Source: Thermosediminibacter litoriperuensis (GTDB lineage Bacteria; Bacillota; Thermosediminibacteria; Thermosediminibacterales; Thermosediminibacteraceae). Taken from it: 64,000 nt of DNA. The stretch is taken from contig NZ_VNHO01000001.1 in NCBI RefSeq assembly GCF_008124715.1, forward strand, positions 62,001 through 126,000. Reading direction: 5' to 3'. The translations under genes and the position numbers were made by a program. Under the pieces are notes generated by a model. It ran no database searches, was not told the origin of the DNA, and saw nothing but the letters and a program-made list of their open reading frames with translations. This document shows positions 491 to 16,281 of this stretch, in pieces (position 1 is the first letter of the stretch; every line of letters begins with the position of its first letter).

Positions 491-1035
491 AATTTGTCAT
501 CACCATCTTTAATACTGTGAATACTCTTTATTTTATTTAAAAAATTATCAAGTTGATTTCCAAAATTCCTGTTTCCAAAACTACCGGTGTTTTCAGCCTC
601 ATAAATTAATTCCGCAGTTTTTTCATCCAGCTCTCCGATTAGACAAATCTCCCTTTCGGACGCAGCCAATACTTGTAGCCCCATTGGAGACTTAATTATA
701 AATACCCGGTTGTGGGAATCCAGATGCAGTACATCCACTACTTCCATGTACTTGCTCTTCCAGCGGGGATACGGTGTATATCTGGCCAGCCATCGGGTAG
801 TTATAAACGCCAGGATGCACACGAAAACTATAGTTATAAAATACACCGCGAACTTCAAAATGATCTGCCACGGGGAAGTCTGTTGTGAATCGCCAGGTTC
901 TTCAAAACTGTACTTTTTTAAATTATCTACATCTATTGGATCACCATCATCCCCCAGTGCCGCCCAGCTCCCTTTAAATCCTAAAAACAACACTACTAAA
1001 ATAATCAAAGCGTATACACCGTATTTTTTTTTCAT
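487..1035 (-). CDS. fliO: FliO/FliZ-family flagellar biosynthesis protein
   Basis: Assembly factor for the FliP/FliR export-gate complex. The 182-residue product has an N-terminal hydrophobic segment (about residues 5-25, possibly a signal peptide), a short acidic linker, a transmembrane helix at about 57-79, and a cytoplasmic domain with the family pattern YMEVVDVLHLDSHNRVFIIK ... ICLIGELDEKTAELI. The family is poorly conserved. The call rests on this architecture together with the position between cheY and fliP. The start has GAAGGT nine bases upstream. Its stop overlaps the fliP start. Confidence 0.85.
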   Translation of the reverse strand: MKKKYGVYALIILVVLFLGFKGSWAALGDDGDPIDVDNLKKYSFEEPGDSQQTSPWQIILKFAVYFITIVFVCILAFITTRWLARYTPYPRWKSKYMEVVDVLHLDSHNRVFIIKSPMGLQVLAASEREICLIGELDEKTAELIYEAENTGSFGNRNFGNQLDNFLNKIKSIHSIKDGDDKL

Positions 1036-1048
1036 GTTGCTACCTTCT

Positions 1049-1408
1049 TTACGCCAAAGCTTTCTTAACAGCTTCCAGTACCCTGTCCGGCTGAAACGGT
1101 TTAACGACGAAATCCCTAGCTCCGGCCTGTATCGCGTCTATCACCATTGCCTGCTGTCCCATTGCGGAACACATTATTATCCTCGCATCGGGATCTATAC
1201 TTTTTATCCTCCGAACGGCTTCTATGCCATCCATTTCCGGCATTGTAATATCCATTACAACGAGACTGGGCCTCAATTCTTTAAACTTCTCTACGGCAAC
1301 AGCGCCGTTTTCGGCTTCTCCCACAACCTCATACCCATTCTTTGTGAGTATGTCTTTAATCATCATCCTCATAAATGCAGCATCATCTACGATTAAAATT
1401 CCTGCCAT
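1049..1408 (-). CDS. cheY: CheY-type chemotaxis response regulator
   Basis: Single-domain receiver of 119 residues. The phosphorylation site is Asp53 (in MDITMPEMDG), the acidic pocket is Asp8-Asp9, the Thr/Ser switch position is Ser81 and the conserved lysine is Lys103 (VVKPF). There is no output domain, as expected for CheY, which binds FliM and FliY at the motor switch when phosphorylated. It lies directly after fliY and before fliO in the flagellar operon, as in Bacillus and Clostridia. A GGGGGATGAG binding site precedes the ATG. Being a CheY rather than another stand-alone receiver is inferred from this position. Confidence 0.92.
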   Translation of the reverse strand: MAGILIVDDAAFMRMMIKDILTKNGYEVVGEAENGAVAVEKFKELRPSLVVMDITMPEMDGIEAVRRIKSIDPDARIIMCSAMGQQAMVIDAIQAGARDFVVKPFQPDRVLEAVKKALA

Positions 1409-1426
1409 TTTTACTCATCCCCCCGG

Positions 1427-2515
1427 TTACTGTAAGTAATTTATTTTCTCAAAAGAATTTAAAATTTCGGTTATTCTCACTCCGAAACTTTCATCGATCA
1501 CTACAACCTCTCCTCTAGCGATAAGTTTACCGTTTACGAGGATATCTACCGGCTCTCCCGCAAGTTTTTCCAGCTCAATTATCGAGCCCGGTCCTATTTC
1601 CAGTATCTCTTTTATTTTTTTAACCGTTCTCCCCAATTCTACCGATATTTCAAGGGGAACGTCCATGATGAGATCCAGTGAAGATTTCTTGCTGGAAGTT
1701 ACACCCTCACTGAAGTCCTCTAGTTCCACAGGTTTTACACCAACCTTTTCTCCTTTTTTCTCATGCACGGGCTTTTGCGGTTCAGGCGGAGCATTTTCAA
1801 GAACAGGTTCATCCGCATCCCCGCTTTTTGAAGCTTCAAGGGGAATTCCCCTTGATATGGATATCAACTCACTCACCAACTCTTTTGCAAAAGGAATTGA
1901 CATGAGGAGCATTATTTCGCTTTCTATTAAGTCTCCCACTTCCATTTTAAATGAAATCTTCACTATCTTTTCGCCTTTATTGAAATAACTTTTGAGCGAC
2001 TCGTCGTCTAAATTTATGCGCTTCAGCTTGGGTGGGGAAATGTTGATATTTTTTTTCAACAGCGTAGAAAGCGAGGTGGCCGAGGACCCCATCATCTGAT
2101 TCATCGCCTCTCCAACGGCACTTAATCTCAACTCATCGAGCTCCACCTCGGTATTCCTGCCGTCCCCTCCCATCATAAGGTCAGCGATAATTTTTGCGTC
2201 ATCTTCCTTCATTATTAAAATTGTGCTTCCCTCGATACCCTCAGTATGATCCACTATAATCGCAATAAAAGGTATGGAGTATTTCTCCTGCAATTTTTCT
2301 ACAGTGATGAGAGTTACATCAGGGGTAGTTATAGTTACCTTGTTTCTCAAGAGGGTATAAAGGGTTGTAGCAGAAGTACCAATGGATATGTTGCCTATTT
2401 CACCCAGGGCGTCGATCTCCTCTTGAGAAAGAAATTCCCCCTCATCCTGATTCAAAAGGGATTTATTCAACAGCTCATTTATTTCCTCCTGCGATAAAAT
2501 TCGATTTTCATCCAT
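1427..2515 (-). CDS. fliY: FliY, flagellar switch protein with CheC-like phosphatase and FliN domains
   Basis: Switch-complex (C-ring) protein of 362 residues that in Bacillus dephosphorylates CheY-P. An N-terminal EEINELL-type motif resembles the FliM CheY-binding peptide. Two copies of the CheC/FliY phosphatase signature (D/S-x3-E-x2-N-x22-P) are intact: Asp35-Glu39-Asn42 and Ser132-Glu136-Asn139. A variable linker is followed by a C-terminal FliN/SpoA domain (about 280-355). The frame is open to a GTG at 2533 and an ATG at 2524, but the ATG at 2515 is preferred: it has GAGAGG about ten bases upstream and overlaps the fliM stop. FliY replaces FliN in this lineage. Confidence 0.93.
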   Translation of the reverse strand: MDENRILSQEEINELLNKSLLNQDEGEFLSQEEIDALGEIGNISIGTSATTLYTLLRNKVTITTPDVTLITVEKLQEKYSIPFIAIIVDHTEGIEGSTILIMKEDDAKIIADLMMGGDGRNTEVELDELRLSAVGEAMNQMMGSSATSLSTLLKKNINISPPKLKRINLDDESLKSYFNKGEKIVKISFKMEVGDLIESEIMLLMSIPFAKELVSELISISRGIPLEASKSGDADEPVLENAPPEPQKPVHEKKGEKVGVKPVELEDFSEGVTSSKKSSLDLIMDVPLEISVELGRTVKKIKEILEIGPGSIIELEKLAGEPVDILVNGKLIARGEVVVIDESFGVRITEILNSFEKINYLQ

Positions 2516-3503
2516 TCGCTTCATCCCTCTCACTTATAACTTTAGTAATCCTTACCGCAAACCTTCCATTTCTCTTGCCCATTATACCTTTGTATTTAAG
2601 TTTATCGTATACGTAAACATCCATCTCGCTATTAACACGCTTGTCCAGCTGTATTACATCCCCTATATCCAGATCTAAAAATTCTCTAACGGTTATTTGA
2701 GCTTTGCCGATCTCAGCCCTTATCTCGGCATTTACATTTTCCAGCTTTCTGGATAGGGTTTTTATAAAGCTTTCGGAGCTCTCCTTTTTGCTGGTCGATA
2801 ACCATATCTTGGTAGAAAGTCTTGACATAACAGGTTCAATTACTATATATGGTATGCAGATATTTATCAGCCCATCGGTCTTGCCTATACGCGCATTGAT
2901 TGTAATTAAAGCTATAGCCTCATTGGGTGAAACCAATTGAACGAATTGCGGATTTGTCTCAAGTTTATCAAAAACGGGATGAATTTCTAGAATATCCTGC
3001 CACGCTTCCTCCATCAGCTTAACTATTCTGGAATAAACCCTTTGAATGATATTAGTTTCGATTTCGGTAGGCTCTCTGGTTTTATCCTTATATTCACCGC
3101 TCCCTCCTAAAAGCCTGTCTATTATTGAAAAAACCATAGATACGTTCATTGCGATAATTATAGCTCCCCTTAACGGCTGGAAATCGACTATCCCTATGAT
3201 GGATGGATTTGGGATGGAGGATATGAATTCCGAATAAGGCATCTGGTCAACACTGGATGCATTTATTTGAACCAGGGTCCTTAACTGTGTGGAAAAAAAT
3301 GTGATGAGTTGCCTGGCAAAATTTTCATGGATAAGGTGGAGTGTATTGAGCTGCTCTTTCGAAAATTTATCGGGCTTTTTAAAATCGTAAACCTTTATTT
3401 TCGTTTCAAAAGCTTCTTTTTTTATCTCTTCAGCTTTTATTTCGCCTGTAGTTAGTGCAGTTATTAGAGCGTCTATTTCACTCTGAGAAAGAATTTCGGA
3501 CAA
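2508..3503 (-). CDS. fliM: FliM, flagellar motor switch protein
   Basis: C-ring protein of 331 residues linking CheY-P binding to rotor switching. The N-terminus carries the CheY-binding peptide pattern LSQSEIDALI (about residues 5-14). The middle domain (about 45-235) is CheC-like but lacks the catalytic Glu/Asn pairs, as is usual for FliM. The C-terminus (about 255-325) is a SpoA/FliN-type domain with DLDIGDVIQLDKRVN. Downstream, its last bases overlap the start of fliY. Upstream lies fliL with a 17-base gap. Confidence 0.95.
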   Translation of the reverse strand: MSEILSQSEIDALITALTTGEIKAEEIKKEAFETKIKVYDFKKPDKFSKEQLNTLHLIHENFARQLITFFSTQLRTLVQINASSVDQMPYSEFISSIPNPSIIGIVDFQPLRGAIIIAMNVSMVFSIIDRLLGGSGEYKDKTREPTEIETNIIQRVYSRIVKLMEEAWQDILEIHPVFDKLETNPQFVQLVSPNEAIALITINARIGKTDGLINICIPYIVIEPVMSRLSTKIWLSTSKKESSESFIKTLSRKLENVNAEIRAEIGKAQITVREFLDLDIGDVIQLDKRVNSEMDVYVYDKLKYKGIMGKRNGRFAVRITKVISERDEANG

Positions 3504-3520
3504 ATTACAGACCTCCTTAG

Positions 3521-3949
3521 CTAGTTTACAAGTATGTTCGTAAATAATACATCCTCTACTTTCCCCTTCTCCACCACCGTATTCATCATGTCTTTCAATT
3601 CTTTTTTTAGAATTTGCATACCCTTACTATCCTTTACGGAGTCATAGGTCTTTGACCGTAGGATAGAATAAACTCTGTCTTTTATTTCATACTCTTTAGT
3701 CTGCATCTCTTTTTCCGTTTCCTTATCACCCAATATGCATACGATTGAAAGTTTAATATAGCCTTTGTCGGAGAGATTTGTCAGGTAATCCCCCAACTGA
3801 TAAGTTATATATTGTTTTTTCTCTCCTTTTTCTCCGCCCTCTGCTATCAAGTTTCTTGCGATAAAATACGCAGTAGCTGTAGAAATTATCATGAATAATA
3901 CGAGTATTATCAGCAAGCCGAATACGGACTGCATCCTACTTTTTGACAT
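3521..3949 (-). CDS. fliL: FliL, flagellar basal body-associated protein
   Basis: Stator-associated membrane protein of about 142 residues: one transmembrane helix (about 9-30) followed by a periplasm-facing domain with the FliL pattern YQLGDYLTNLSDKGYIKLSI and a C-terminal VLFTNILVN. The frame extends upstream to a GTG at 3967, but the ATG at 3949 has a near-ideal GGAGGT six bases before it and gives the usual short basic N-terminus, so it is chosen. The binding site lies just past the motB stop, so the two genes are tightly packed. Confidence 0.9.
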   Translation of the reverse strand: MSKSRMQSVFGLLIILVLFMIISTATAYFIARNLIAEGGEKGEKKQYITYQLGDYLTNLSDKGYIKLSIVCILGDKETEKEMQTKEYEIKDRVYSILRSKTYDSVKDSKGMQILKKELKDMMNTVVEKGKVEDVLFTNILVN

Positions 3950-3963
3950 GAATTTACCTCCAT

Positions 3964-4716
3964 TCACCTGGGCTCCTGTGACCCTGAGGAAGAATTTAAT
4001 ATTATTATGTCCACACGCCTGTTCAGGGCCCTGTTCTTCTCGGAATCATTGGGCGCAATAGGGTGGTATTCCCCGTAACCCGCAGCAGAGATTATGCGAG
4101 GGGATATATTATGTTTTTCAATAAAATACCTTACCACATTCACCGCCCTCGTTGTGGACAGTTCCCAGTTTGAAGGAAATTCCCTGGTATGGATGGGCAC
4201 ATTGTCCGTGTGCCCTTCAACTCTAATAGGACGCCGGCTCTGTCTCAAGATAGGTGCGATTTTATCCAGTACCTGCCTGGCATCCTCTCTTAAGTAAGCC
4301 TTACCGGAATCGAAAAGAGCTCCTTCCATAAATCTTATCGCAAGTCCCCTTTCATCCATGCCCACCCTTATCCCTTTGAAATTATTTTCTTCTATTATTT
4401 CGAGAATGGTGTTTTCTAAATTCCGCAATTCCCTTTCTTCTCTGCCCTCGGGTAAATTCTCACCAACTAGGCCGCCCTCGATAAAACTTTTCTTTGTCAG
4501 GGTTCTCCCGCCATCTAATATACCTAAAGAGCCCTGTAAAGAAGTCATAGCCATATCGAACTTTTTCGCATCAATATTCGAAAGAGCAAAAAGCAGGACG
4601 AAAAATATAAGGATTTGAGTGATAAGGTCACCATATGTAGTCATCCAGAGAGGAGCACCGGGAGGGCTATCGTTGCCCCCTCCGTTTCTCCTTCTAACGC
4701 CAGGCAAGGCTATCAC
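3964..4716 (-). CDS. motB: MotB, flagellar stator protein with OmpA-like peptidoglycan-binding domain
   Basis: Stator subunit of 250 residues. One N-terminal transmembrane helix (about 26-48) contains the ion-binding aspartate in WMTTYGD (Asp30). A plug/linker segment precedes a C-terminal OmpA-like domain with VEGHTDNVP and NRALNRRVDI, which anchors the stator to peptidoglycan. The start is a GTG overlapping the end of motA by 23 bases; the ribosome binding site is weak, suggesting coupled translation. The sequence alone does not show whether the motor uses H+ or Na+. A motAB pair inside the flagellar operon, rather than elsewhere, is common in Clostridia. Confidence 0.95.
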   Translation of the reverse strand: MIALPGVRRRNGGGNDSPPGAPLWMTTYGDLITQILIFFVLLFALSNIDAKKFDMAMTSLQGSLGILDGGRTLTKKSFIEGGLVGENLPEGREERELRNLENTILEIIEENNFKGIRVGMDERGLAIRFMEGALFDSGKAYLREDARQVLDKIAPILRQSRRPIRVEGHTDNVPIHTREFPSNWELSTTRAVNVVRYFIEKHNISPRIISAAGYGEYHPIAPNDSEKNRALNRRVDIIILNSSSGSQEPR

Positions 4717-5500
4717 CGCTTTCGGGAGAAGTGCCCCTTTCTTTTAACGTCTCTCTCAGTTTCGGGGCCAGGAATGCTTTGAGTTTTTCTTCGATAATCC
4801 TGGGGTTTTCTCCGGCCTGTATGGAAAGAATACCTTCTATCATTACCTCTTTCATTAGAATTTCCTGTTTGCTACGAACCTTCAGTTTGCCGGCAATAGG
4901 AAGAAAAAGAAAATTGGCAAGAGTTGCCCCGTAAAAGGTGGTTATGAGAGCCACGGCCATACCCGGGCCTACGGCGCTAGGATCATCTAATTTGTTCAAC
5001 ATCTGGATCAAACCGATTATGGTACCTATCAACCCGTATGCGGGAGCTAAGGCGCCCATAGTTTCAAATATGCTCTGGCCTTCTTTATGTCTTTCTTCAA
5101 GAAAAGCGAGTTCCGTTTCCAGGATATTTTTAACGAGCTCAGGATCGGTACCGTCCACCACCAGCATTATGCCTCTTTTCATAAAATCGTCTTGAATCTG
5201 AGCTGCAGTATCTTCGAGAGCCAGAAGTCCTTCTCTCCTGGCTGTATCCGCCAAGTTTACTATTGTCCGGATTATCTCTTCACTGCTCATCTGTTTTTCT
5301 ATAACAACATTTTTAAGTATTTTCACGACCTCTATGAGTTTGGAGAGAGGATAATTTATAAGAGTTGAAGCCACAACACCTCCTAATACTATCAGCATTG
5401 AAGGTATATTTATAAAAGCGCTAATGGGTCCCCCCATGTATATGGCCCATAGGAAAATTGCCAGCCCACCTATTATTCCAATTATTGTAGCGCGATCCAT
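4694..5500 (-). CDS. motA: MotA, flagellar stator ion-channel protein
   Basis: Stator subunit of 268 residues that forms the ion channel with MotB and pushes on FliG. Four hydrophobic segments are visible (about 5-22, 33-50, 148-170 and 180-200). The cytoplasmic loop contains TARREGLLALE, the family motif, and the third segment begins GALAPAYGLIGTIIGLI. The ATG overlaps the flbD stop (TGATG), so the two are translationally coupled. Confidence 0.95.
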   Translation of the reverse strand: MDRATIIGIIGGLAIFLWAIYMGGPISAFINIPSMLIVLGGVVASTLINYPLSKLIEVVKILKNVVIEKQMSSEEIIRTIVNLADTARREGLLALEDTAAQIQDDFMKRGIMLVVDGTDPELVKNILETELAFLEERHKEGQSIFETMGALAPAYGLIGTIIGLIQMLNKLDDPSAVGPGMAVALITTFYGATLANFLFLPIAGKLKVRSKQEILMKEVMIEGILSIQAGENPRIIEEKLKAFLAPKLRETLKERGTSPESGDSLAWR

Positions 5501-5694
5501 CAGCCTTCACTTCCCTTTACAATTCTTCTTTTATATTCAATAACCTTGTCCACTACTTCTTCAGGCGATTCCCGCACTATGTATGTCCTCTCGTTAGTCA
5601 GTTTTATTACGGTATCCGGTGTCGGCTCTATTGTTTCAATTAGCTCAGCATTCAGGTAAAATCTCCTGCCGTTCAATTTGGTGAGTTCAACCAA
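5500..5694 (-). CDS. flbD: FlbD-family flagellar protein
   Basis: Small protein of 64 residues of the FlbD/SwrD family, which in Bacillus is needed for stator power (swarming). The core LTKLNGRRFYLNAELIETIE, followed by PDTVIKLTNERTYIVRES, matches the family. An ATG at 5712 would add six residues, but a TTG at 5694 has AGAGGTG at good spacing and yields the usual N-terminus (Met-Val-Glu-Leu-Thr). It lies between flgE and motA, the usual place of this gene. Confidence 0.85.
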   Translation of the reverse strand: MVELTKLNGRRFYLNAELIETIEPTPDTVIKLTNERTYIVRESPEEVVDKVIEYKRRIVKGSEG

Positions 5695-5746
5695 AATCAC
5701 ACCTCTTTTCATCAGCCCGGGCTAAAGAGCCCGGGCTCCGTGAAGA

Positions 5747-6955
5747 TTACCTCTTGATATTCACCAGTTCCTGAAGCATTTCGTCAGATGCCGTGATTAT
5801 TCTAGAATTAGCCTGGAAACCCCTTTGGGTTATTATCATCTGGGTGAACTCTTCGGCCAGATCGACATTGGACATTTCCAGCGAACCCGGCGATATGGTT
5901 CCCCTTCCTCCGGTGCCTGCCATGCCTATCTGCGGTTCACCCGAGTTGTTGGAATAGGTGTACATGTTCCTTCCGGCTTTTATAAGGCCGGACGGGTTGT
6001 CGAAGATCGCCAGGGCCACCTGGGCCAGTTCCATATTCTGGCCGTTGTCAAACACCCCCGTTATAGTACCGGTAGAATCCACCGAGATGCCAAGCAGGGT
6101 ACCAGCAGGGTAACCGTCCTGGTAGGAGAGGTCTATGGTGGTCTCTTTTGCGTATTGGGTTACATTGGAGAAATCAAGATCGAATGTAATGGGCTCCGCC
6201 CCATTTACGTTAAGTGTAATTGGGGTGCTTGGGTTTCCTGAAGTCAGTATGCCGTAAGTGTTAAAAGACAGCGTGTCGTTATATATGGATGTATCGGCCG
6301 AGTCTTTTATGTCATAATCCCAGGTATTATCGCCATTTTTTGTAAAAGTAATTGTAAGGTTATGGGCATTTCCTTTGGAATCGTAGACCTTGAACGGGAT
6401 GATGTACTGCGTTCCCACAGGATCCGCGTCGTTTAAATTTTTTGCAAACCTGACATCACTCGTGGCGCTCGCCGCCATCATCATGCCCTTTTTTACTATT
6501 ATCGGGGATATATTCTGCGGCGTCTTTGACTGTGCATTCTGCCACCCCATTACTTTAAACCCGTTGGCTGTATTAACCAGATTACCTTCTTCATCAAATC
6601 CGAAATTGCCGGCTCTCGTATAGTAGTAACCCTGGCCGTCGGACATTATGAAGAAGCCGTCGCCTTCGATGGCAAGATCCGTCATATTCCCCGTGGCCTC
6701 CAGGCTGCTCGGAGTGTGTATCGTATCAATGGCCGCGATTGTCATCCCCAGGCCTACCTGCATCGGGTTCGTTCCACCCCGGTTGCCCTGGGGCGAAGAC
6801 GCTCCTCTCATGGTCTGGCTCAGGGTATCCTGAAAAGTCACCCGGCTTTTTTTATAACCGACCGTATTGACATTGGCTATGTTATTGCCTATTACGTCCA
6901 TTTTTATCTGATGATTTCTCAGGCCGGTTACGCCTGAAAACATTGACCGCATCAT
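5747..6955 (-). CDS. flgE: FlgE, flagellar hook protein
   Basis: Hook subunit of 402 residues, exported by the flagellar type III system. The N-terminal rod/hook signature reads MFSGVTGLRNHQIKMDVIGN followed by NIANVNTVGYK. A middle FlgE D2-type region carries GDGFFIM and the C-terminal coiled part ends in MIITQRGFQANSRIITASDE. Length is typical of Gram-positive hook proteins. GGGGAGG lies about ten bases before the first of two adjacent ATG codons. A 90-base gap separates it from the upstream gene. Confidence 0.95.
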   Translation of the reverse strand: MMRSMFSGVTGLRNHQIKMDVIGNNIANVNTVGYKKSRVTFQDTLSQTMRGASSPQGNRGGTNPMQVGLGMTIAAIDTIHTPSSLEATGNMTDLAIEGDGFFIMSDGQGYYYTRAGNFGFDEEGNLVNTANGFKVMGWQNAQSKTPQNISPIIVKKGMMMAASATSDVRFAKNLNDADPVGTQYIIPFKVYDSKGNAHNLTITFTKNGDNTWDYDIKDSADTSIYNDTLSFNTYGILTSGNPSTPITLNVNGAEPITFDLDFSNVTQYAKETTIDLSYQDGYPAGTLLGISVDSTGTITGVFDNGQNMELAQVALAIFDNPSGLIKAGRNMYTYSNNSGEPQIGMAGTGGRGTISPGSLEMSNVDLAEEFTQMIITQRGFQANSRIITASDEMLQELVNIKR

Positions 6956-7045
6956 AATTTATCTTCCTCCCCGTTTTAATTAATGATTTCGGGGTGCCTG
7001 GACTCCTTCTGTCGATCCGGAGCCTTGAGCCTCCTGTGGTCCGGC

Positions 7046-7435
7046 TCACACTATTACGGCACCATCAATATTTGTAAACACATTCTCTTTGAGGTTGGGT
7101 CCATCAACCGCAGTTATGATAGTCCTGTTTTTTACACTGACAATAAAAGCTATGTCGTTCATGAGTATGAGCGATTCCCTGACACCCTTTTTCTCAGCTT
7201 TGTCCAGGGCGCTGTTGAGTTTTTTGAGCTGTTCAGGCGTCAAATTTATATTCCTTGAACTCATGCGAAGCTGGGCATGTTTTGAAATCTTCAGCTGGTT
7301 GTCCAGCTTTTCTTCTAAAATTTTCTCGAAGCTGCTTGAATCGCGCGAAATTCCTTCTTTTCTTACATTTTGCCCGATAGGTTCAATCCTGTTGGAATAC
7401 AGAACAGCAGGGGAAATTTTTATATACTCGTCCAC
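7046..7435 (-). CDS. Flagellar operon protein, TIGR02530 family
   Basis: Protein of 129 residues matching the conserved flagellar operon protein found between flgD and flgE in Gram-positive bacteria. Typical features are the central SKHAQLRMSSRNINLTPEQL, then LNSALDKAEKKG, ending in FTNIDGAVIV. Its exact function is not established; a role with hook assembly is implied by position only. Start is a GTG with GGATGGTGG upstream. Confidence 0.85.
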   Translation of the reverse strand: MDEYIKISPAVLYSNRIEPIGQNVRKEGISRDSSSFEKILEEKLDNQLKISKHAQLRMSSRNINLTPEQLKKLNSALDKAEKKGVRESLILMNDIAFIVSVKNRTIITAVDGPNLKENVFTNIDGAVIV

Positions 7436-7460
7436 AAAACCACCATCCCGTTTCTGCTCT

Positions 7461-7850
7461 TTACCTTATTTCAAACACATCCCGCAGGGGAACCAACTTT
7501 TCTTCATCTCCGATGATCAAATTTAAATTTCCTTGGTCGAATGCCACGCCCTTTATTATTCCTGAAACATACCCTTCTTTAATACGGGCTTTGGCGGTTT
7601 TTCCTATAACGCTGATCGCAGACATCGCTGAAATCTGGGAATTCAAATTCTGCAGCTGTTCCAGGGACGTAAAAGTTGCAAGCTGCGCTATGTATTCCTT
7701 GCTGTCAAGAGGTTCGAGGGGATTTTGATGCTTCAGTTCGGTTATCAGCAGCTTCAAAAAATCATCTTTTCCGAGCTGGGCTCTGCCGGCTGAAACATTG
7801 TCTGCGCCCCTGTACGTCTGGGAAACTGCCGTAAAATTAACCTTGTCCAC
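7461..7850 (-). CDS. flgD: FlgD, flagellar hook-capping protein (short form)
   Basis: Hook-cap scaffold of 129 residues. The N-terminal export/assembly domain is clear: [35 protein letters not shown]. The C-terminal Ig/tudor-like domains found in enterobacterial FlgD are missing, leaving only a short beta-rich tail; this short form is common in Bacillus and Clostridia. Start is a GTG with GGAGGG upstream. Confidence 0.92.
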
Positions 7851-7865
7851 GGTTTAAACCTCCCT

Positions 7866-9110
7866 TCATACTACGTAATTTATCGTACTTGGTCCGAGGA
7901 GTTGGTAATACACGGTTTCCGACCTATCTATTGCTTCAACTTCTTCAAACCTTGTACCCCCGGTGCTCCCGCTACCCGCTTTTTTGAAAGTGTTATACCA
8001 TTCACCATTTTCGAATTTATGCCCGTTTTGATTCATATCCAACTGAGATGAAAATTCATAGACCTTGACTTCGGTAATCGAATAACCCTGCTGTTGAATT
8101 TGATTTTTAATTTCATTAGCATTTGCCTGCAAAGTTTCTCTAATATAAGCATTCTTTACGAAAAGTTCTGCGCTCATTTCCCCCTCAACAGCAACGATCT
8201 TTATGACTATGTCGCCCAGGAATTCAGGCTTGAGCTTGATCCTCATTTCTCTTGCCTGGCCTTTTAAAGCCATCTGGACCTTGGCAACCACCTTATCGAA
8301 TATTTCAGTCTTGAAAAATTGCTCCGGTTTTTGTTCAGTGTTTTTTTCGGCCCCCGCTCTTTCAGTGGTAAACGCTTTATCATCCGCACTCACGTCTATC
8401 GCAGCGTACTGAACACCAACTTTAATAGTTTCAGTTTTATCTTCTAAGGTTTCGACCACCTGCCCGTTAGGTGTCGATTCGTAACTGCCAACTGTGGTTT
8501 TGGCTGTAGTATTTTTATTTATATTTAATACATAGCCATGGCTCGTGGTATTGGAGAGTTCCGATTTGCTTTTACTCTGAACCTGGTTTTTTAGGATCCG
8601 TCCTTCGGTGATTACGTCTCGGGGGACTGTCTGGAGTTTTTTAGTCATGACACTTTTTTGGAGAAAATGTTCAAGATGGTCTTTAAAATCCTGTAAATCT
8701 AAGGATTTTAGTTGCGGTATTGACTCACAGAGTTTTCTGTAGAGCTGTAAAATTTTAAGGTTATCTATCTCCCCGCTCTTTTCAAATTTTATTACTATAT
8801 TTTTCAACAGCGGAAGTACACCTTTATTTAACTGGTTTGCTCCGGTAATTATCCCGGGCATAAGACGATCAGCACTTTCGACGCTATTTGCGGTTTCCTC
8901 CGTCGTTTTTAAATCCTGATATAATAAGTTAATCAACTGGAGCAGAACGCTGCAAACAGCGGCATTTAAATTTTTTTTGTCGGACTCCTGTTGTAAAAGT
9001 CCCAGCAGGTTTTTAAAATCGCCCCGTTCTTCGTCGATATGCCTTCTCCTCAAATCCACTTTTGTTTGATTTGCCAGTACGGGGAAAAAAGCAGCCGATT
9101 CGGCAAACAC
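7866..9110 (-). CDS. fliK: FliK, flagellar hook-length control protein
   Basis: Molecular ruler that switches export from hook to filament subunits. Product is 414 residues: a long, poorly conserved helical N-terminal part and a C-terminal FliK domain (about 270-345) with the family core LKPEFLGDIVIKI, then GEMSAELFV and IKNQIQQQGYSITEVKVY. The frame is open 36 codons further upstream, into the preceding gene, but GTG at 9110 is preceded by a textbook AAAGGAGGTGA and is the clear start. Identification rests on the C-terminal domain and the position before flgD. Confidence 0.88.
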   Translation of the reverse strand: MFAESAAFFPVLANQTKVDLRRRHIDEERGDFKNLLGLLQQESDKKNLNAAVCSVLLQLINLLYQDLKTTEETANSVESADRLMPGIITGANQLNKGVLPLLKNIVIKFEKSGEIDNLKILQLYRKLCESIPQLKSLDLQDFKDHLEHFLQKSVMTKKLQTVPRDVITEGRILKNQVQSKSKSELSNTTSHGYVLNINKNTTAKTTVGSYESTPNGQVVETLEDKTETIKVGVQYAAIDVSADDKAFTTERAGAEKNTEQKPEQFFKTEIFDKVVAKVQMALKGQAREMRIKLKPEFLGDIVIKIVAVEGEMSAELFVKNAYIRETLQANANEIKNQIQQQGYSITEVKVYEFSSQLDMNQNGHKFENGEWYNTFKKAGSGSTGGTRFEEVEAIDRSETVYYQLLGPSTINYVV

Positions 9111-9144
9111 GTTCTTCACCTCCTTTCTCTGCCTTTCTTTTATA

Positions 9145-9702
9145 TTACTGGAGGCCCGACAGTTTCTTGGTAATGGCCGCCGCTCGCTTGGGATCCATAT
9201 TAGCCAGTATTTCCGCAACGGATTCCTTCTTCATATTTCGGAATATCTGTATCACAAATTCATCTTCCATGGACTCGATTATTCTTGCGGCTCTGCCGGT
9301 CTCCATTAATTCGTAGTACTGGGCAATATTTTTCATATTCTTCTCGCTCTCATCCATCTTTGCTTTTGCCAGGTTAAGTTCCTCTTCTTTTGTCTTCAGC
9401 TCAATTTCCTTGTTCTTCAGCTCTTCCTGTTTTTTATTTATTTCATCCATCTGCCTGTTGATTTTGTCCCACTCAGCCTGTAACATGCTTCTTTCTTTTT
9501 CTATCTCCTCTAGGACAATTTTTTCCTCAGCGGTCCGACTTGAAAATCTTGCTCCTATAAATGGAATTTTGGAGATAGCATTACTCAACGCAGGTTCTGC
9601 CTTTCCTGCTTTGATAAACCATAGATAGAAGAAAACTCCGGCTATTAGGGTTGTAAAAAGGACAATAGCAACACCTATCAAGGTATATTTTTTTTCAGCC
9701 AT
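9145..9702 (-). CDS. MotE/YlxF-like protein with MgtE_N-type domain
   Basis: Membrane-anchored coiled-coil protein of about 185 residues: one transmembrane helix (about 6-28), a charged coiled coil (about 55-120, heptads rich in Glu/Lys) and a C-terminal MgtE-N-like domain (about 125-183) with IIESMEDEFVIQIFRNM and LANMDPKRAAAITKKL. This arrangement matches YlxF of Bacillus and MotE of Proteobacteria, where MotE chaperones stator or FliK-related assembly. GTG at 9708 is the alternative start; it overlaps the fliJ stop. Confidence 0.82.
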   Translation of the reverse strand: MAEKKYTLIGVAIVLFTTLIAGVFFYLWFIKAGKAEPALSNAISKIPFIGARFSSRTAEEKIVLEEIEKERSMLQAEWDKINRQMDEINKKQEELKNKEIELKTKEEELNLAKAKMDESEKNMKNIAQYYELMETGRAARIIESMEDEFVIQIFRNMKKESVAEILANMDPKRAAAITKKLSGLQ

Positions 9703-9704
9703 GT

Positions 9705-10163
9705 TCACAGTTCAAATCCCCCTCCCCGCCTGAAAAAAGCGAGTGAGGCAATATCGTCGAGGGCTTTCTGTTCTTCTCTATTGAATTCCACAAGATAAGC
9801 GCCAAATCTTTTGTCTCTTAATCTCTCCAGAATCTGCCTTTCCTGCCTTGAACTTATAAAGACATCTACGGCTTTATTATATCGCTCAAGGGCACCGGCC
9901 ACTCTGTATTTCTGATTTTTTACCTTTAAATCAAGGGTATTAATGCATGCTTCGAAAAAGGCAAGTTCTGCTGCCTTTAATGAATCCCGCATTTTTTGCT
10001 CTAAATTGACCTTTATGGCAGCTTTGTTCTCTTCCAAAATCTTCAACTCATTTTTTTCCCTTTCCAGTGTCAATATGACTTCCATCAGTTGCTGTTTCCT
10101 CATCTGCTCAATTTTCTGTTTCACCCTTAGGGGGGTGTTCAGGTTGAATTTAAACCGTTTCAT
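9705..10163 (-). CDS. fliJ: FliJ, flagellar export chaperone/ATPase stalk
   Basis: Coiled-coil protein of 152 residues that works with the FliI/FliH ATPase as the central stalk. It is almost entirely helical and charged, starting MKRFKFNLNTPLRVKQKIEQ and ending with an ALDDIASLAFFRRG tail. The first dozen residues (FKFxLxxxLRVKxxxE) are the best family signature. An AAAGGAG site precedes the ATG. It sits directly after fliI, the normal place. Confidence 0.85.
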   Translation of the reverse strand: MKRFKFNLNTPLRVKQKIEQMRKQQLMEVILTLEREKNELKILEENKAAIKVNLEQKMRDSLKAAELAFFEACINTLDLKVKNQKYRVAGALERYNKAVDVFISSRQERQILERLRDKRFGAYLVEFNREEQKALDDIASLAFFRRGGGFEL

Positions 10164-10172
10164 TGGATGGAA

Positions 10173-11492
10173 TTACTCCTTTTCAAAGATGCTCTTTAGA
10201 TTCGCAAGGGCCTCTTCGTAATCGACTTTTTCATCAACTTCCTGAACCAGAAAGTTCCTGATGTCATCTATATATTTTAACGCCTCATCTATTTTGGGGT
10301 TACTCCCCCTTACATAAGCTCCGATGTTTATAAGGTCTTCGGCTTCGCTGTAAATCGAAATCAAGCTTTTTACCTTTGCGGCCAGTCTCCTATGTTCATC
10401 GGATATAACATCGATCATTAGACGGCTTACGCTGGCGAGCACGTCGATGGCCGGATAGTGGTTCCTGTTTGCAAGAGTCCTCGAAAGAACTACGTGCCCG
10501 TCAAGTATACCCCTTACGGTATCCGATATGGGTTCGTTTAAGTCGTCGCCCTCTACTAGGACTGTATAAATCCCCGTAATAGAACCGGCGTTGGACGTCC
10601 CCGCCCTCTCCAGCAGTTTTGGCAGTATAGCGAAAACTGAAGGCGTATATCCCCTGGTTACCGGGGGTTCCCCAGCTGCCAGGCCGACTTCCCGCTGTGC
10701 CATGGCAAACCTGGTAACCGAATCCATCATCAGCATTACGTCCAGTCCCTGATCTCTGAAGTACTCGGCGACAGCGGTGGCCGTAAATGCCGCCTTTGTC
10801 CTTATCAGCGGGGGTTTATCCGATGTAGCCACCACCACCACAGACCTTTTTAAACCTTCTTCTCCCAGGTCCTTCATTATAAAGCTGTTTAGTTCTCTTC
10901 CCCTTTCCCCTATGAGGGCTATTACGTTTACATCCGCTTTTGTATTTCTGGCAATCATTCCAAGCAGAGTGCTTTTCCCCACACCGCTGCCTGCGAAAAT
11001 TCCAACTCTCTGACCCCGCCCGCAAGTAATAAGCGTATCTATGACCTTTATTCCCAGGGGTAAGGGCCTGTTTATCGGCGCTCGTTCTACAGGGTTTGGC
11101 GGGGAATTGAACAGGGGATAATAAGTGTGGCTTTTTATGGGGCCTTTGCCGTCAATTGGAGTGCCCAGACCATCCAGTATTCTGCCCAGCAGCTGCTCGC
11201 CAACGGGTACCGCGAGCTTTTTACCCGTAGCTTCAACTTCCCCGCCGGGCGCAATGCCCTCCATATCGCCGAGAGGCATCAGGATTATCGCATCATCTCG
11301 GAAACCAACAACTTCAGCCAGCAATTTTTTAGGCTCTCTGGTAGCTTTTATTTCGCAAATCTCCCCTATCTCCGCCGGCGGCCCCTGCGATTCTATTGTA
11401 AGACCCACAATTTTTGATATTTTACCCTTGGGTTTTAATGTATCGATACCGTCTATGACGGTTTTATAGTAATTAAAAACTTCACTAATCAT
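10173..11492 (-). CDS. fliI: FliI, flagellum-specific ATPase
   Basis: Export ATPase of 439 residues, homologous to F1-beta. The Walker A is GSGVGKST at residues 168-175, the GERGREL block follows, Walker B is in LDVMLMMDSVTRFA, and EPPVTRGYTPSVFAILPKLL identifies the type III secretion/flagellar branch. It energises unfolding and delivery of export substrates at the FlhA/B gate. The ATG overlaps the fliH stop by eight bases. Confidence 0.97.
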   Translation of the reverse strand: MISEVFNYYKTVIDGIDTLKPKGKISKIVGLTIESQGPPAEIGEICEIKATREPKKLLAEVVGFRDDAIILMPLGDMEGIAPGGEVEATGKKLAVPVGEQLLGRILDGLGTPIDGKGPIKSHTYYPLFNSPPNPVERAPINRPLPLGIKVIDTLITCGRGQRVGIFAGSGVGKSTLLGMIARNTKADVNVIALIGERGRELNSFIMKDLGEEGLKRSVVVVATSDKPPLIRTKAAFTATAVAEYFRDQGLDVMLMMDSVTRFAMAQREVGLAAGEPPVTRGYTPSVFAILPKLLERAGTSNAGSITGIYTVLVEGDDLNEPISDTVRGILDGHVVLSRTLANRNHYPAIDVLASVSRLMIDVISDEHRRLAAKVKSLISIYSEAEDLINIGAYVRGSNPKIDEALKYIDDIRNFLVQEVDEKVDYEEALANLKSIFEKE

Positions 11493-12252
11493 CCTCCAGT
11501 ACTTCCATTTCCTTTAATGCAGTTTGAAGGTTATCTAGCTGGGTGCGCAAACCAGCATCCAGCTCAAAACAGCTCCCCTGAATAATGCAATCTCCTTCCG
11601 ATAAAGTAGGGTCCTTGATGAAATTGATTTTTTTATATCCTGCTTTATACTGAATCTCCTTCATTTTTTCTTCCAGTTTCATGTAATCCTTCTCACTGAT
11701 CCTTACGAGTACATCTTTTTCTTCTCCCACTTTATCAAGAGCTGCTCTTATGAGGTTCATTATGTACTCGTTGTCCACTTCCACGTGTTTTCTGAGTATT
11801 TTTTCCGCTATATGAATTGCCAGCTTCAGACAGTCTTTTTCCAGAGTTTTTAGATACTCCCTGTTTTGAACTAAGAGTATTTCCCTCAACTCGTTGAACT
11901 GGCGAAGGCTTTCCTCAAAAAGGCCGGTTAATTCCTTTTTTGCATCTTCTGAGCCCTGCCTGAAACCGTCGCTATATCCTTTTTCGAAGGCTTCCCGTTT
12001 GATTTGTTCCTGCCTTTCCTTCGCCTCTTTTATCAATCTCTCGCTTTCTTTTTTTGCATTTTCAATTATTTCTATCGCTTTTTCCATGGCATCATCATAA
12101 AGTTTACTGGCTCTGTCTTTGAAAAACAGTTCTATGGGCAGCTGTACCCTCTCTCTCGATATATCCGCCAGGTTGGAAACCTTTACAGGAATATCCTTTA
12201 TCCTGAAGGGTCTTTCTCTCAAAACTTCCGTATACTTCAGCACTTTAGACAA
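11485..12252 (-). CDS. fliH: FliH, flagellar export ATPase regulator
   Basis: Peripheral stalk of 255 residues that tethers and regulates FliI. It has a long charged coiled coil (about 50-110, with KAIEIIENAKKESERLIKEA) including the GYSDGFRQGSEDA glycine-containing segment typical of FliH, and a C-terminal V-type ATP synthase E-like domain ending in QGSCFELDAGLRTQLDNLQT. It overlaps the 3' end of fliG by eight bases and the fliI start by eight bases. Confidence 0.92.
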   Translation of the reverse strand: MSKVLKYTEVLRERPFRIKDIPVKVSNLADISRERVQLPIELFFKDRASKLYDDAMEKAIEIIENAKKESERLIKEAKERQEQIKREAFEKGYSDGFRQGSEDAKKELTGLFEESLRQFNELREILLVQNREYLKTLEKDCLKLAIHIAEKILRKHVEVDNEYIMNLIRAALDKVGEEKDVLVRISEKDYMKLEEKMKEIQYKAGYKKINFIKDPTLSEGDCIIQGSCFELDAGLRTQLDNLQTALKEMEVLEDD

Positions 12253-13252
12253 TTATTTCGTCTCCTCCCCCGCGGGATATTATTATCTCGCCGGCATCTT
12301 CAAGTTTCCTTATTATATTCACTATCTTCTGCTGAGCTTCCTCAACATCTCTCAACCTAACAGGCCCTAGGTACTGCATGTCTTCCTTTATCATTTCAGC
12401 CTGGCGTTTCGACATATTGTTGAAAATCTTGTTTTTAACCTCATCGCTCGCTCCTTTTAGGGCTAACACCAGTTCCTGGCTATCGACTTCCCTCAGTATA
12501 CGCTGTATTGACCTGTTGTCAAGGGTGAGGATGTCTTCAAATACAAACATCCTTCTTTTTATTTCTTCGGCCAGATCCGGGTTCTCCATTTCGAGAGCTT
12601 CGATTATATTCTTTTCAGTGCTGCGGTCAACATCGTTCAAAATATTTACTATAGCCTGGATGCCACCCACATTTGTGTAATCTTCCACCACAACTGCCGA
12701 CAGTTGCCGTTCGAGCACTTTCTCTATTTCCATAATGACCTCAGGCGATATTCTTTCCATTGTAGCAATGCGTTTGGCTATCTCTACTTGTTTTTCCGGC
12801 GGCAGTGAAGACAGGAGCAATGCAGCCTTTTCCGGCTGCAGATACGCCATTATGAGTGCTATAGTTTGAGAATTCTCGTTCTGAATAAAGTTAATGAGCT
12901 GGGCAGGGTCGGCTTTTCTGACGAAATCGAAAGGCCTTACCTGCAGTGATGAAGTCAACTTGTTTATTATTTCAAATGCTTTCTGGGTTCCTAAAGCCTT
13001 TTCCAGGATTTCTTTTGCATATTCGATCCCACCCTGGGTAATGTAATCGTTAGCCAAGAGCATCTGGTGAAATTCTTCATAAACCGCTCTTCTCTCTTCT
13101 TCTCCCACTTTTCTTAAACTAGCGATATCCATTGTAAGCTGTTCTATTTCGTCTTCTTTCAAATAGCGGTATATATTAGATGCCAACTCGGGTCCGAGAG
13201 CAACAATGAGTATGGCGGCCTTCTGCCTCCCAGTAAGCCTGGACACGGGCAT
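12245..13252 (-). CDS. fliG: FliG, flagellar motor switch protein
   Basis: Rotor protein of 335 residues that contacts the stator through its C-terminal charged helix. The three-domain FliG layout is visible: N-terminal FliF-binding part (LTGRQKAAILIVALGPELAS), the middle domain with an EHPQ-like motif varied to ENSQTIALIMAYL, and the C-terminal domain with VFEDILTLDNRSIQRILREV. GAGGTG precedes the ATG. Confidence 0.96.
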   Translation of the reverse strand: MPVSRLTGRQKAAILIVALGPELASNIYRYLKEDEIEQLTMDIASLRKVGEEERRAVYEEFHQMLLANDYITQGGIEYAKEILEKALGTQKAFEIINKLTSSLQVRPFDFVRKADPAQLINFIQNENSQTIALIMAYLQPEKAALLLSSLPPEKQVEIAKRIATMERISPEVIMEIEKVLERQLSAVVVEDYTNVGGIQAIVNILNDVDRSTEKNIIEALEMENPDLAEEIKRRMFVFEDILTLDNRSIQRILREVDSQELVLALKGASDEVKNKIFNNMSKRQAEMIKEDMQYLGPVRLRDVEEAQQKIVNIIRKLEDAGEIIISRGGGDEIIV

Positions 13253-13263
13253 TTAAAACACCT

Positions 13264-14805
13264 CTATTCTTCGTTAAGCCAGGTCCTCAGAATTTTGGCC
13301 ACGTCTTCAGGCCTCCTCCTGGCAAGTTTTTCTATATCACTGAATACCTCCTGTTTCTCCTCGGATACCTGTGAAGCAGCCTGCTGGGCCGCCGCCAGTT
13401 CGTGGGCGAGTCTTTCTTCCTCCATCCGCCTTCTTCTTTCAGTAGCAATTCGATAGGCTATTATAAATAGGATTGCGGCGGCTGCAGCACTAATGATTAT
13501 AAGCATTCTCTGCCTTTCTTTTCTCTGATTTTCTTCAGTCAGTTGTTTTGACAATATGTCGGCCAGCTGATTATTAAAGGTCATGCCCTCAACTGTTATC
13601 TGATCACGCTGTATATCATAACCTATAGCATTTCCGACAAGGGTGGCTATTTTATTTTTTTCTTCATCATTCAAATCCCTGTTTATTACCACCGAAACCG
13701 TTATCTTTTTAACGGTTCCAGGAGCAACAGTAAGATTTTCTTTAGATTCATTTACTTCATAATTACGTATAACTTCAGTTTTCTGATAATTTGATGTTCC
13801 GTCGGTATTGAGCTGCATATAACCCGGTATGTTTGTGTCTGTGCCAGGATTCCCTATTGGAACGTTACCTGCTCCGGAAAAATGTTCTTTTAATTCCTGG
13901 ACGCTGCGCAGAATTCCTTCGCCGGTTTCGGAGCTTACAGGTAAAAATAATGTGTTTTCTACAATTTTCTTATCAAAATTCAACTGGGCATTGACCCTGA
14001 CAGCTACATTACCGGGCCCGAATATCTGTTCAAGTAGCGACTGTACACTGGCCTGCAGTTGCTTTTGAAAGTTATTCTGTATTGCCAGTTGAGAATTAAC
14101 GACCTCCTTTGTATTTTGTTCTTCGGAAAGAGGAATGTTTGACAGCACTCTTCCAAACTCGTCAACTATGGTTATATTTTCTGGCTTAAGGCCTTCGATA
14201 GAATGGGCAATTAAATTTAAAATGCCGCGGGTTTCTTCTTCGGTAATTTCCACTCCTGGTTTAAGTTTTAAAAATACAGCCGCCGAGGGTTCCTTTTGCT
14301 CGTTCGGCTCTATAAACAGACTTTTCTGGGGCTGTACAATATGTACTCTAGCAGATTCCACCTGTTCCATTTCTTCAATGGTTCGTGTGAGCTCACCCTG
14401 CAGAGCTTGAGTATACTGAAGCTGCTTTTCCCACTCGGTGGTACCCAGCTTTGTTTTGCTGAATATATCGTTAAATCCTAATACACCACCCTTCGGAAGG
14501 CCCTCTCGGGCGAGATCTAACCTGATCTTGTAAACGTCCTTTGCATCAGCCAGTATAGTTTTTCCACCATCCGAGAGTTTATATGGAATTTTCATATCCT
14601 CCAGTTTTTTTACAATTTCTCCTGCGTCCCTTTCACTCAGGTTAGAATAAAGGGGCACATAATTAGGCCGACTGGCAAAGTACCCCAAAAAACCTACTAT
14701 TAGAATCAGCAAAGAAGCGCTCAGTAACAGTTTGATTTTCTGCGCCCTATTCCTGCTTTCCCAAAATTCTTTCGCCTGCCGCTTAAAGTTGTTGATAAAT
14801 TCCAT
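13264..14805 (-). CDS. fliF: FliF, flagellar MS-ring protein
   Basis: MS-ring subunit of 513 residues, the platform on which the basal body is built. Two transmembrane helices are seen, at about 25-45 and 430-450. The first periplasmic ring-building region contains YVPLYSNLSERDAGEIVKKL and a second contains VSVVINRDLNDEEKNKI. The C-terminal cytoplasmic tail ends in DIEKLARRRPEDVAKILRTW, the FliG-binding motif. AGGTGG lies six bases before the ATG. Confidence 0.96.
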   Translation of the reverse strand: MEFINNFKRQAKEFWESRNRAQKIKLLLSASLLILIVGFLGYFASRPNYVPLYSNLSERDAGEIVKKLEDMKIPYKLSDGGKTILADAKDVYKIRLDLAREGLPKGGVLGFNDIFSKTKLGTTEWEKQLQYTQALQGELTRTIEEMEQVESARVHIVQPQKSLFIEPNEQKEPSAAVFLKLKPGVEITEEETRGILNLIAHSIEGLKPENITIVDEFGRVLSNIPLSEEQNTKEVVNSQLAIQNNFQKQLQASVQSLLEQIFGPGNVAVRVNAQLNFDKKIVENTLFLPVSSETGEGILRSVQELKEHFSGAGNVPIGNPGTDTNIPGYMQLNTDGTSNYQKTEVIRNYEVNESKENLTVAPGTVKKITVSVVINRDLNDEEKNKIATLVGNAIGYDIQRDQITVEGMTFNNQLADILSKQLTEENQRKERQRMLIIISAAAAAILFIIAYRIATERRRRMEEERLAHELAAAQQAASQVSEEKQEVFSDIEKLARRRPEDVAKILRTWLNEE

Positions 14806-14824
14806 TCAATTCCACCTTCACCTG

Positions 14825-15109
14825 TTAAATCTGCATCCTCATTATCTCTTGATACGCTTCAATTGCCTTGTTTCTTATCTGCACCGCAAATTCCAGGGAT
14901 AGCTTTGCCTTTTCTGCAGCAATCATAACTTCATGGACGCTCATGTCTTCTCCGGCTATCAATTTTTTTAACACATTGTCGTAATCTTTCTGATACCCGT
15001 TTACTGTTTCAAAGGCTTTTACCAGTATATCTTTAAAGGAGTTATCCTCCTGTTTTTTTGAAGCCGCGACAACGTTGGTTAACTCTCCTCCAATACTTCT
15101 TATAATCAA
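14825..15109 (-). CDS. fliE: FliE, MS-ring/rod junction protein
   Basis: Adapter of 94 residues joining MS-ring and rod. The C-terminal core is typical: EDMSVHEVMIAAEKAKLSLE followed by FAVQIRNKAIEAYQEIMRMQ. Start is a TTG preceded by AAGGAGGGG about eight bases upstream. It lies between flgC and fliF as in most Gram-positive bacteria. Confidence 0.93.
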   Translation of the reverse strand: MIIRSIGGELTNVVAASKKQEDNSFKDILVKAFETVNGYQKDYDNVLKKLIAGEDMSVHEVMIAAEKAKLSLEFAVQIRNKAIEAYQEIMRMQI

Positions 15110-15140
15110 AAGGCACCCCTCCTTCTTCTACTTTGGTCCG

Positions 15141-15584
15141 CTATGTCCTTCCTATTTCCAAAGCCTTGTTGATCATACCCTTTGCCGCATTTATTGCGGT
15201 TATATTTGCCTCATAACTTCTGGTGGCCGATATCATATCTACCATCTCAGTAACGACATTAACATTTGGCATCAGCACATATCCCTGAGGGTTAGCATCG
15301 GGATGAGTGGGATCGTATACCAGTTTAAAGGGACTTGGGTCTCTCTCTATACCTACGACCCTGACTCCAGCCCCCGTTTGTTTCGGGGATAAATTCGACA
15401 GCAGATCCTTAAAGGTAAAATTGTCCTTTCTTTCCTGAAAAACCACCCTCTGCCTCCTGTAAGGACCACCTTCTTCAGTCCGGGTCGTATTAACATTGGC
15501 GATATTATTGGATATTACATCCATTCGAAGCCTCTGAGCAGTCAGGCCGGAAGCGCTTATTTCCATAGACCTAAAAATCTCCAC
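15141..15584 (-). CDS. flgC: FlgC, flagellar basal-body rod protein
   Basis: Proximal rod subunit of 147 residues. N-terminal signature ISASGLTAQRLRMDVISNN, then IANVNTTRT; FlgC-typical DPTHPDANPQGYVLMPNVNV and C-terminal EMVDMISATRSYEANITAIN are present. Start is a GTG two bases after the flgB stop, with GGGAGGAG inside the end of flgB. Confidence 0.96.
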   Translation of the reverse strand: MEIFRSMEISASGLTAQRLRMDVISNNIANVNTTRTEEGGPYRRQRVVFQERKDNFTFKDLLSNLSPKQTGAGVRVVGIERDPSPFKLVYDPTHPDANPQGYVLMPNVNVVTEMVDMISATRSYEANITAINAAKGMINKALEIGRT

Positions 15585-15586
15585 TT

Positions 15587-15997
15587 TTATCTCCTCCCTT
15601 CCGTTACGGCTGATCTAAGCAGTGAAAAATGTCTCTGAACCTGTTCGGCTATAATATTGTAAGACATAGCATTTTTAGCGAGCTCAACCATTTCCTTGTC
15701 TACATCCACATTGTTTCCGTCATTTCTCAAAACTCTGTCGTGTTGCATAACTATTTTCGGTTTTAAATCAAATGTGGACTTTAAATTGGATATGTGTTTT
15801 TCAGTGGAGGTTTTCAGAGGTAATCTAGAATTACTCTCGTCCAGATATTTTTGTAGCAGCTGTTCGAAAACCACATCGGATCTTTTAAAGTTAGGCGTAT
15901 CTACATTGGCTATGTTATTTGCCAGCACCTCGTGCCTCATCCACTTTGCATCCATGATTTTCTGGAGCAGGGTTGGAGTTTCAAAGAGATTTATCAA
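15587..15997 (-). CDS. flgB: FlgB, flagellar basal-body rod protein
   Basis: Proximal rod subunit of about 136 residues and first gene of the flagellar operon. Signature LANNIANVDTPNFKRSDVVF is intact, as is the C-terminal MVELAKNAMSYNIIAEQVQR. The frame opens at a GTG (16006), but GAAGGTGA overlaps that codon and is better spaced for the TTG at 15997, giving the usual LINLFE start; both remain possible. Transcription would come through the c-di-GMP riboswitch upstream, so this gene and those after it depend on read-through of that element. Confidence 0.93.
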   Translation of the reverse strand: MINLFETPTLLQKIMDAKWMRHEVLANNIANVDTPNFKRSDVVFEQLLQKYLDESNSRLPLKTSTEKHISNLKSTFDLKPKIVMQHDRVLRNDGNNVDVDKEMVELAKNAMSYNIIAEQVQRHFSLLRSAVTEGRR

Positions 15998-16101
15998 TTG
16001 GCTCACCTTCTCTTTTCGACATCAGTTACCATTTTCCACCTTTTTTATTCGCCAAAAACTTCTATTTTCCTTCTACCCCTTAAAATATTTGAAATATATT
16101 T

Positions 16102-16127
16102 AAAAATCTATCCCGAATGGGATAGAA
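16102..16127 (-). terminator. Intrinsic terminator, expression platform of the c-di-GMP riboswitch
   Basis: On the minus strand TTCTATCCC (16127-16119), loop ATTC, GGGATAGA (16114-16107) and a T5 run form a compact Rho-independent terminator. The 5' arm can instead pair with GGGATAGAA at 16143-16135, which contains the 3' strand of aptamer helix P1. The two pairings exclude each other, so ligand binding (P1 formed) frees the terminator and lowers flagellar expression. The logic is read from the sequence; the sign of regulation is inferred. Confidence 0.85.
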
Positions 16128-16138
16128 TGGCTTCTTCT

Positions 16139-16231
16139 ATCCCTTCAGCAACCTGGCAGGCATGGCATAGAAATGCTTTAGCCCCATGGCTTTGCGCCCT
16201 TCCCTTTCGAGAAGTTTGCCTTTTTAGGGAT
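16139..16231 (-). ncRNA. Cyclic-di-GMP class I (GEMM-I) riboswitch aptamer
   Basis: Recognised by the conserved GEMM-I blocks in order on the minus strand: AAAGGCAAAC, a helix capped by a GAAA tetraloop, GGGCGCAAAGCC, GGGGCTAA, then a second hairpin leading to GCCAGGTTGCTGAA. Helix P1 is closed by ATCCCT/AGGGAT. The GAAA tetraloop and the AAC segment are the known parts of ligand-pocket architecture. It sits about 130 bases upstream of flgB with a terminator in between, matching c-di-GMP control of flagellar operons described in Clostridia. Confidence 0.9.
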
Positions 16232-16252
16232 AATTTGTCTATTTGTGTCAAT

Positions 16253-16281
16253 ATTATAACACACTTGGATAAAAATGTATA
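16253..16281 (-). promoter_or_regulatory. Probable sigma-A promoter of the flagellar operon
   Basis: A consensus TATAAT (-10) lies on the minus strand at 16258-16253; 17 bases upstream is a weak -35 (TATACA). Predicted start is near 16246, shortly before the riboswitch aptamer. A TTGACA just downstream is not followed by a -10 at proper distance. Confidence 0.6.

Follow-up and report, generated by a model that had tools for sequence, protein, structure and literature searches.

The closest described counterpart of the element considered here is Cd1/Cdi1_3 of Clostridioides difficile, a class I riboswitch for cyclic diguanylate (c-di-GMP) located in the 5' untranslated region of flgB, with sigD in the operon (PMC6366702, PMC3649979). 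It was characterized as an OFF switch by in vitro transcription, northern blotting and motility, and c-di-GMP causes termination both in vitro and in cells (PMC6366702, PMC3649979). An invertible 'flagellar switch' upstream of the same operon is described in the abstract of PMC7446863, and the ON role in C. difficile is filled by class II switches (PMC6366702). Bc2 (Bacillus thuringiensis cap), cited in PMC6366702, is of the same aptamer class and acts in the opposite direction, as a class I ON switch. The present analysis concerns the leader of flgB in a window of 64,000 nucleotides of Thermosediminibacter litoriperuensis (contig NZ_VNHO01000001.1, positions 62,001 to 126,000); coordinates given without a locus name are those of the window, and the leader and its operon lie on the (-) strand.

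The flgB-leader element of the window is another example of the arrangement already proven in C. difficile. Placement in the 5' untranslated region of flgB and a gene of sigma-28 in the same operon are found here too, as is an intrinsic terminator whose 5' arm is common to an antiterminator based on helix P1. A premature terminator with OFF behavior, known for Cd1/Cdi1_3, is likewise predicted here, with a terminated RNA of ~145 nt compared with ~160 nt. The leader of the window is ~250 nt long, whereas 496 bp separate the promoter from the start codon in C. difficile (PMC3649979); the operon occupies 23 kb in C. difficile (PMC6366702) and about 29.5 kb here, including cheAWCD and ycgR. What the locus adds to the known arrangement, as judged from sequence comparison, is the uneven retention of the element within a lineage. 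A circuit that had been established chiefly in a single gut pathogen is extended here to a little-studied Thermosediminibacteraceae-like lineage, in which one RNA sits upstream of nearly the whole motility program, sigma-28 included. The c-di-GMP-I riboswitch is, with high probability, a transcriptional OFF switch of one long flagellar and chemotaxis operon, with a predicted response to the ligand.

Aptamer and switching platform of the flgB leader

The aptamer (16144..16230 (-)) was assigned to the c-di-GMP-I (GEMM-I) class by cmscan against Rfam. The match to RF01051, read from 16230 to 16144, covers model positions 1-87 of 87 with a score of 86.7 bits (E 9.4e-16), the gathering score being 35 bits; no second Rfam match reaching its gathering score was found in the window. 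In the whole-genome search this copy has the top score among eight c-di-GMP-I matches. The conserved blocks GGCAAAC and CGCAAAG, as well as CGAAAG with the GNRA tetraloop on the P2 hairpin, are present in the alignment, and P1 is represented by TATCCCT (16232-16226) paired with AGGGATA (16144-16138). The conserved blocks, P1 and tetraloop that the original prediction had considered legible were all located in the RF01051 alignment or by folding, and the covariance-model check it had proposed returned a full-length match. Sequence places the element in the c-di-GMP-I class, with c-di-GMP as the putative ligand.

A predicted sigma-A promoter with an extended -10 element (TGTTATAAT, 16253..16281 (-), 10/12 in the scan, with TG before the -10) precedes the aptamer and places the probable transcription start near 16246. 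Four segments with exchangeable partners were recognized by folding. Segment A (16226..16233 (-), TTATCCCT) is the 5' strand of P1, with segment D as its alternative partner; segment B (16135..16144 (-), AGGGATAGAA), identified with and without enforcing the aptamer, is the 3' strand of P1 and the 5' arm of the antiterminator; segment C (16119..16127 (-), TTCTATCCC), for which paired changes in relatives were also found, is the arm common to antiterminator and terminator; segment D with the U run (16102..16114 (-)), also detected by the terminator scan, is the 3' arm of the terminator, GGGATAGA, with TTTTT. The antiterminator consists of GGGATAGAA (16143-16135) paired with TTCTATCCC (16127-16119), with -12.2 kcal/mol as a lone hairpin, and the B:C helix comprises nine pairs and three further pairs beyond a bulge. 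The terminator consists of TCTATCCC (16126-16119) paired with GGGATAGA (16114-16107), followed by TTTTT to 16102, with about -11.3 to -11.5 kcal/mol. The pairing sets {A:B, C:D} and {B:C, A:D} exclude each other. Three mutually exclusive segments had been proposed originally; the positions given for the arms of antiterminator and terminator were confirmed, but the segments number four, because the 5' strand of P1 also pairs with the 3' arm of the terminator.

The folding energies and probabilities are equilibrium rather than kinetic values, calculated for 37 C. The minimum-free-energy structure of the full leader contains B:C and A:D (-47.4 kcal/mol); with the aptamer and P1 enforced, C:D forms (-43.9 kcal/mol) and the terminator alone remains available, while the best C:D-containing fold without enforcing the consensus aptamer pairs has -46.3 kcal/mol. 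The ligand-free probability of C:D, that is, of the terminator, is 0.05 in this genome (G000). When successive RNA lengths were folded, P1 preceded the synthesis of C and was displaced by B:C on completion of C (16118), which leaves an interval for bound ligand to determine the result. The whole leader is more stable than 200 of 200 dinucleotide shuffles (z -3.4). Of 200,000 shuffles of the 28-nt platform, 0.015% produced an 8-bp stem directly adjoining the U run, and in none of these did an arm also show full complementarity to the 3' strand of P1.

The same platform logic with diverged sequence was found in three genomes of a neighboring family, namely, G009, G010 and G016, with ligand-free terminator probabilities of 0.016, 0.000 and 0.006, respectively. 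Since MAFFT misaligned the platform between the lineages, its pairs were counted in a hand-set register, in which C:D pairs 1, 7 and 8 and B:C pair 4 are altered on both sides between G000 and these genomes, and P1 of the latter shows mismatches. Conservation of the platform by compensatory change is observed in this hand-set register, with few independent events.

An OFF switch is predicted because the 3' strand of P1 is the 5' arm of the antiterminator, and the aptamer with P1 leaves only the terminator. This direction of control, proposed originally from the position of P1, is supported by the anatomy, the folding, the platform of the relatives and the OFF behavior of the C. difficile counterpart. 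RNA polymerase would start near 16246 and transcribe the aptamer first. At low c-di-GMP, P1 would open, B would pair with C, the terminator would be blocked and transcription would reach flgB, while the freed segment A could hold D. At high c-di-GMP, the bound aptamer would keep A:B, C would pair with D, and transcription would stop near 16102, with an RNA of ~145 nt. The expression of the entire motility program, including the only PilZ protein of the cell (YcgR), would then be lowered, since fliA, motAB, cheAWCDY, ycgR and the genes of the export apparatus all lie downstream on this strand, with no strong break in the run.

Operon downstream of the leader

The operon comprises 36 genes over about 29.5 kb on the same strand and extends beyond the window to a terminator; the roughly 22 genes originally ascribed to it are about what the window holds. 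The first gene, flgB (15587..15997 (-); TIGR01396, E 4e-34), likely begins with a TTG codon after AGAGAAGGTGA, as read from the sequence. It is followed at 487..15584 (-) by flgC, fliE, fliF, fliG, fliH, fliI, fliJ, a MotE/FlbB-like gene, fliK, flgD, a TIGR02530 gene, flgE, flbD (swrD), motA, motB, fliL, fliM, fliY, cheY and fliO (NCBIfam and Pfam), and at 1..490 (-) by the start of fliP (Pfam). The genes continuing beyond the window, annotated with Pfam, are, in order, fliP, fliQ, fliR, flhB, flhA, flhF, flhG, ycgR (PilZ), cheA, cheW, cheC, cheD, fliA, fapA and orf90, the last encoding a protein of 90 aa for which no family was named. Matches of FliH, FlgD, MotA, MotB, FliL and FlgE were under the NCBI curated cut-offs or came from related models, and these names accordingly rest on E-value and gene order. 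The gene fliA (L009:8573-9310), encoding a sigma-28-like factor with regions 2 and 4, is located inside the flagellar run. The operon ends with a hairpin with a T run (L009:6799-6776, terminator scan), followed by a promoter-like site and a gene of the Rrf2 family.

By gene order, the claim that one RNA stands ahead of the whole motor holds and extends to the chemotaxis genes and sigma-28; a single transcript from flgB to the operon end is inferred from the same order. A working switch that controls mainly the proximal basal-body genes, with internal promoters feeding motAB, che and fliA, is considered unlikely. The length of the run, 29.5 kb, and its promoter-like matches, which are frequent (48 vs 32.5 expected; 38 vs 28.4 expected), speak for such promoters. 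On the other side, a search of the coding strand of the run for sigma-28-like sites, allowing one mismatch, found none, gaps between its genes do not exceed 90 nt (open reading frames at 487..15584 are spaced by -74 to +90 nt), and no strong terminator was found inside the run, where terminator-like sites are weak and lie within genes.

Between the terminator and flgB lies the distal leader (15998..16101 (-)), parts of which are conserved across the family; scans of it for a U-tailed hairpin and a sigma-70-like promoter found neither. A conserved motif of the distal leader, AGGA...TTTTTGNCGAA, was considered as a recurrent regulatory site and rejected, having only two occurrences in the genome in that form. 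A strong hairpin without a T run, AGCCCGGGCT...AGCCCGGGCT (-21.7 kcal/mol, 5713-5746), is located between flgE and flbD and is perhaps an element of mRNA processing or stability.

Retention and decay of the leader in relatives

The closest named relatives of flgB are records of Thermosediminibacteraceae and Fervidicola. An RF01051 match just upstream of flgB was found in G000, G008, G009, G010, G016 and G023. Five of these genomes, drawn from the same family, order and class, lie outside the genus of G000, and three of the five (G009, G010 and G016) have the same A/B/C/D platform. G008, from another genus of the same family, combines an intact aptamer with another platform, and G023, from a third family, also carries a flgB-leader aptamer; in both, other terminators follow the aptamer. 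Among the 16 flgB-carrying genomes of at least 90% completeness, the flgB leader carries an aptamer above threshold in six and a decayed copy in one (G007).

The decayed aptamer of G007, a genome of the same genus, occupies the corresponding position and scores 33 bits, under the gathering score (L113:1501-1586 = G007:C1:1072310-1072395). Its leader retains the promoter and the terminator, the latter with a ligand-free probability of 0.60, and P1 has one paired change, but the antiterminator is broken. All 35 compared proteins of the G007 operon (35/35) are uninterrupted, and the operon is therefore still maintained. A transposase-like reading frame is present upstream of the decayed leader.

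In genera g2 and g3 (six genomes), no riboswitch was found before flgB, though the promoter and distal leader are similar; around the -10, the family genomes of g1-g3 resemble one another in sequence, and this applies also to those with no riboswitch. A set of 40 flgB loci, mostly of distant genomes, was searched with cmscan, and only two, L042 and L067, carry riboswitches, so that a location before flgB is not a general one. In L067 (Dethiobacter sp. SURF_39, 2149-2396), two near-identical c-di-GMP-I aptamers are arranged in tandem before flgB.

Intact, decayed and missing leaders within one family form a comparison set for riboswitch loss without operon loss. A tentative reading, held at slightly under even chances, is that the riboswitch of the flgB leader is a module that evolution can discard and that, within a single family, c-di-GMP control of the flagellum passed from RNA to a different level; as part of the same reading, G000 would keep an apparently working OFF switch and G007, having lost aptamer and antiterminator, would have a ligand-blind attenuator terminating partly by default, while only the promoter and distal leader would be left in g2 and g3.

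Several points weigh against an OFF switch governing the whole operon in G000. The energy gap to the best C:D structure is small, 1.1 kcal/mol, and switching therefore hinges on kinetics; folding was calculated at 37 C, whereas the named relatives are thermophiles. The paired changes of the platform stem from two or three lineages rather than from many independent events. Sigma-70-like matches occur throughout the operon at a frequency somewhat above chance, and the genome encodes just three GGDEF domains. The element is also dispensable, since close relatives retaining the operon have it in decayed form or lack it.

From the last point it could be supposed that the leader of G000 is a fading relic, which folds as described and has ceased to control the operon in vivo. 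The degraded same-genus copy and the two sister genera with no element are in line with this, as all these relatives retain flgB and a ycgR-type PilZ gene and the same-genus operon is intact throughout. The G000 copy, in contrast, has the top score of the eight in its genome and its switching helices are all perfect, which makes a relic very improbable and an active OFF switch the preferred explanation.

c-di-GMP-associated genes and leaders of the genome

Along with its three GGDEF domains, G000 has eight c-di-GMP-I matches and one PilZ domain, and this sole PilZ domain is encoded within the flagellar operon (ycgR). A literature search on the likely genus and c-di-GMP found nothing relevant. 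One aptamer (L005:1501-1588) precedes a T2SSF (PilC/GspF-type) gene; the ligand-free terminator probability there is 0.999, and the leader is predicted to be an ON switch because the 3' strand of the aptamer forms the terminator. Another (L004:1501-1595), predicted OFF with a ligand-free terminator probability of 0.004, precedes a cheW gene and a Cache-domain (receptor) gene. Taken together, the leaders suggest that high c-di-GMP lowers the expression of flagella and chemotaxis and raises that of a pilus-like system, the pattern known from C. difficile, although class II switches fill the ON role there.

The T2SSF leader, as well as class I ON switches such as Bc2, could speak for an ON switch at flgB too, namely, a real aptamer whose ligand prevents termination. 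Before flgB, the 3' strand of P1 is in the antiterminator, not in the terminator, and the ligand-free terminator is improbable, so that an ON switch is still less probable than a relic. GEMM-I variants with changed ligand specificity exist, and least probable of all is another cyclic dinucleotide, e.g., 3',3'-cGAMP (cyclic GMP-AMP), as the ligand, given the 86.7-bit match to the c-di-GMP-I consensus and the unchanged GGCAAAC block, which presumably includes the guanine that changes in cGAMP variants (Vc2 numbering). An OFF switch responding to c-di-GMP is thus preferred to both.

Three further aptamers, L002, L003 and L007 (each from 1501), were found before genes of a sigma-54 activator, a small helix-turn-helix protein and a DJ-1/PfpI protein. 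A weak aptamer of 38-40 bits (L008:393-481 and L112), similar to the L003 leader, is present in both genomes of the genus and, judging by its sequence, looks like a degenerating duplicate.
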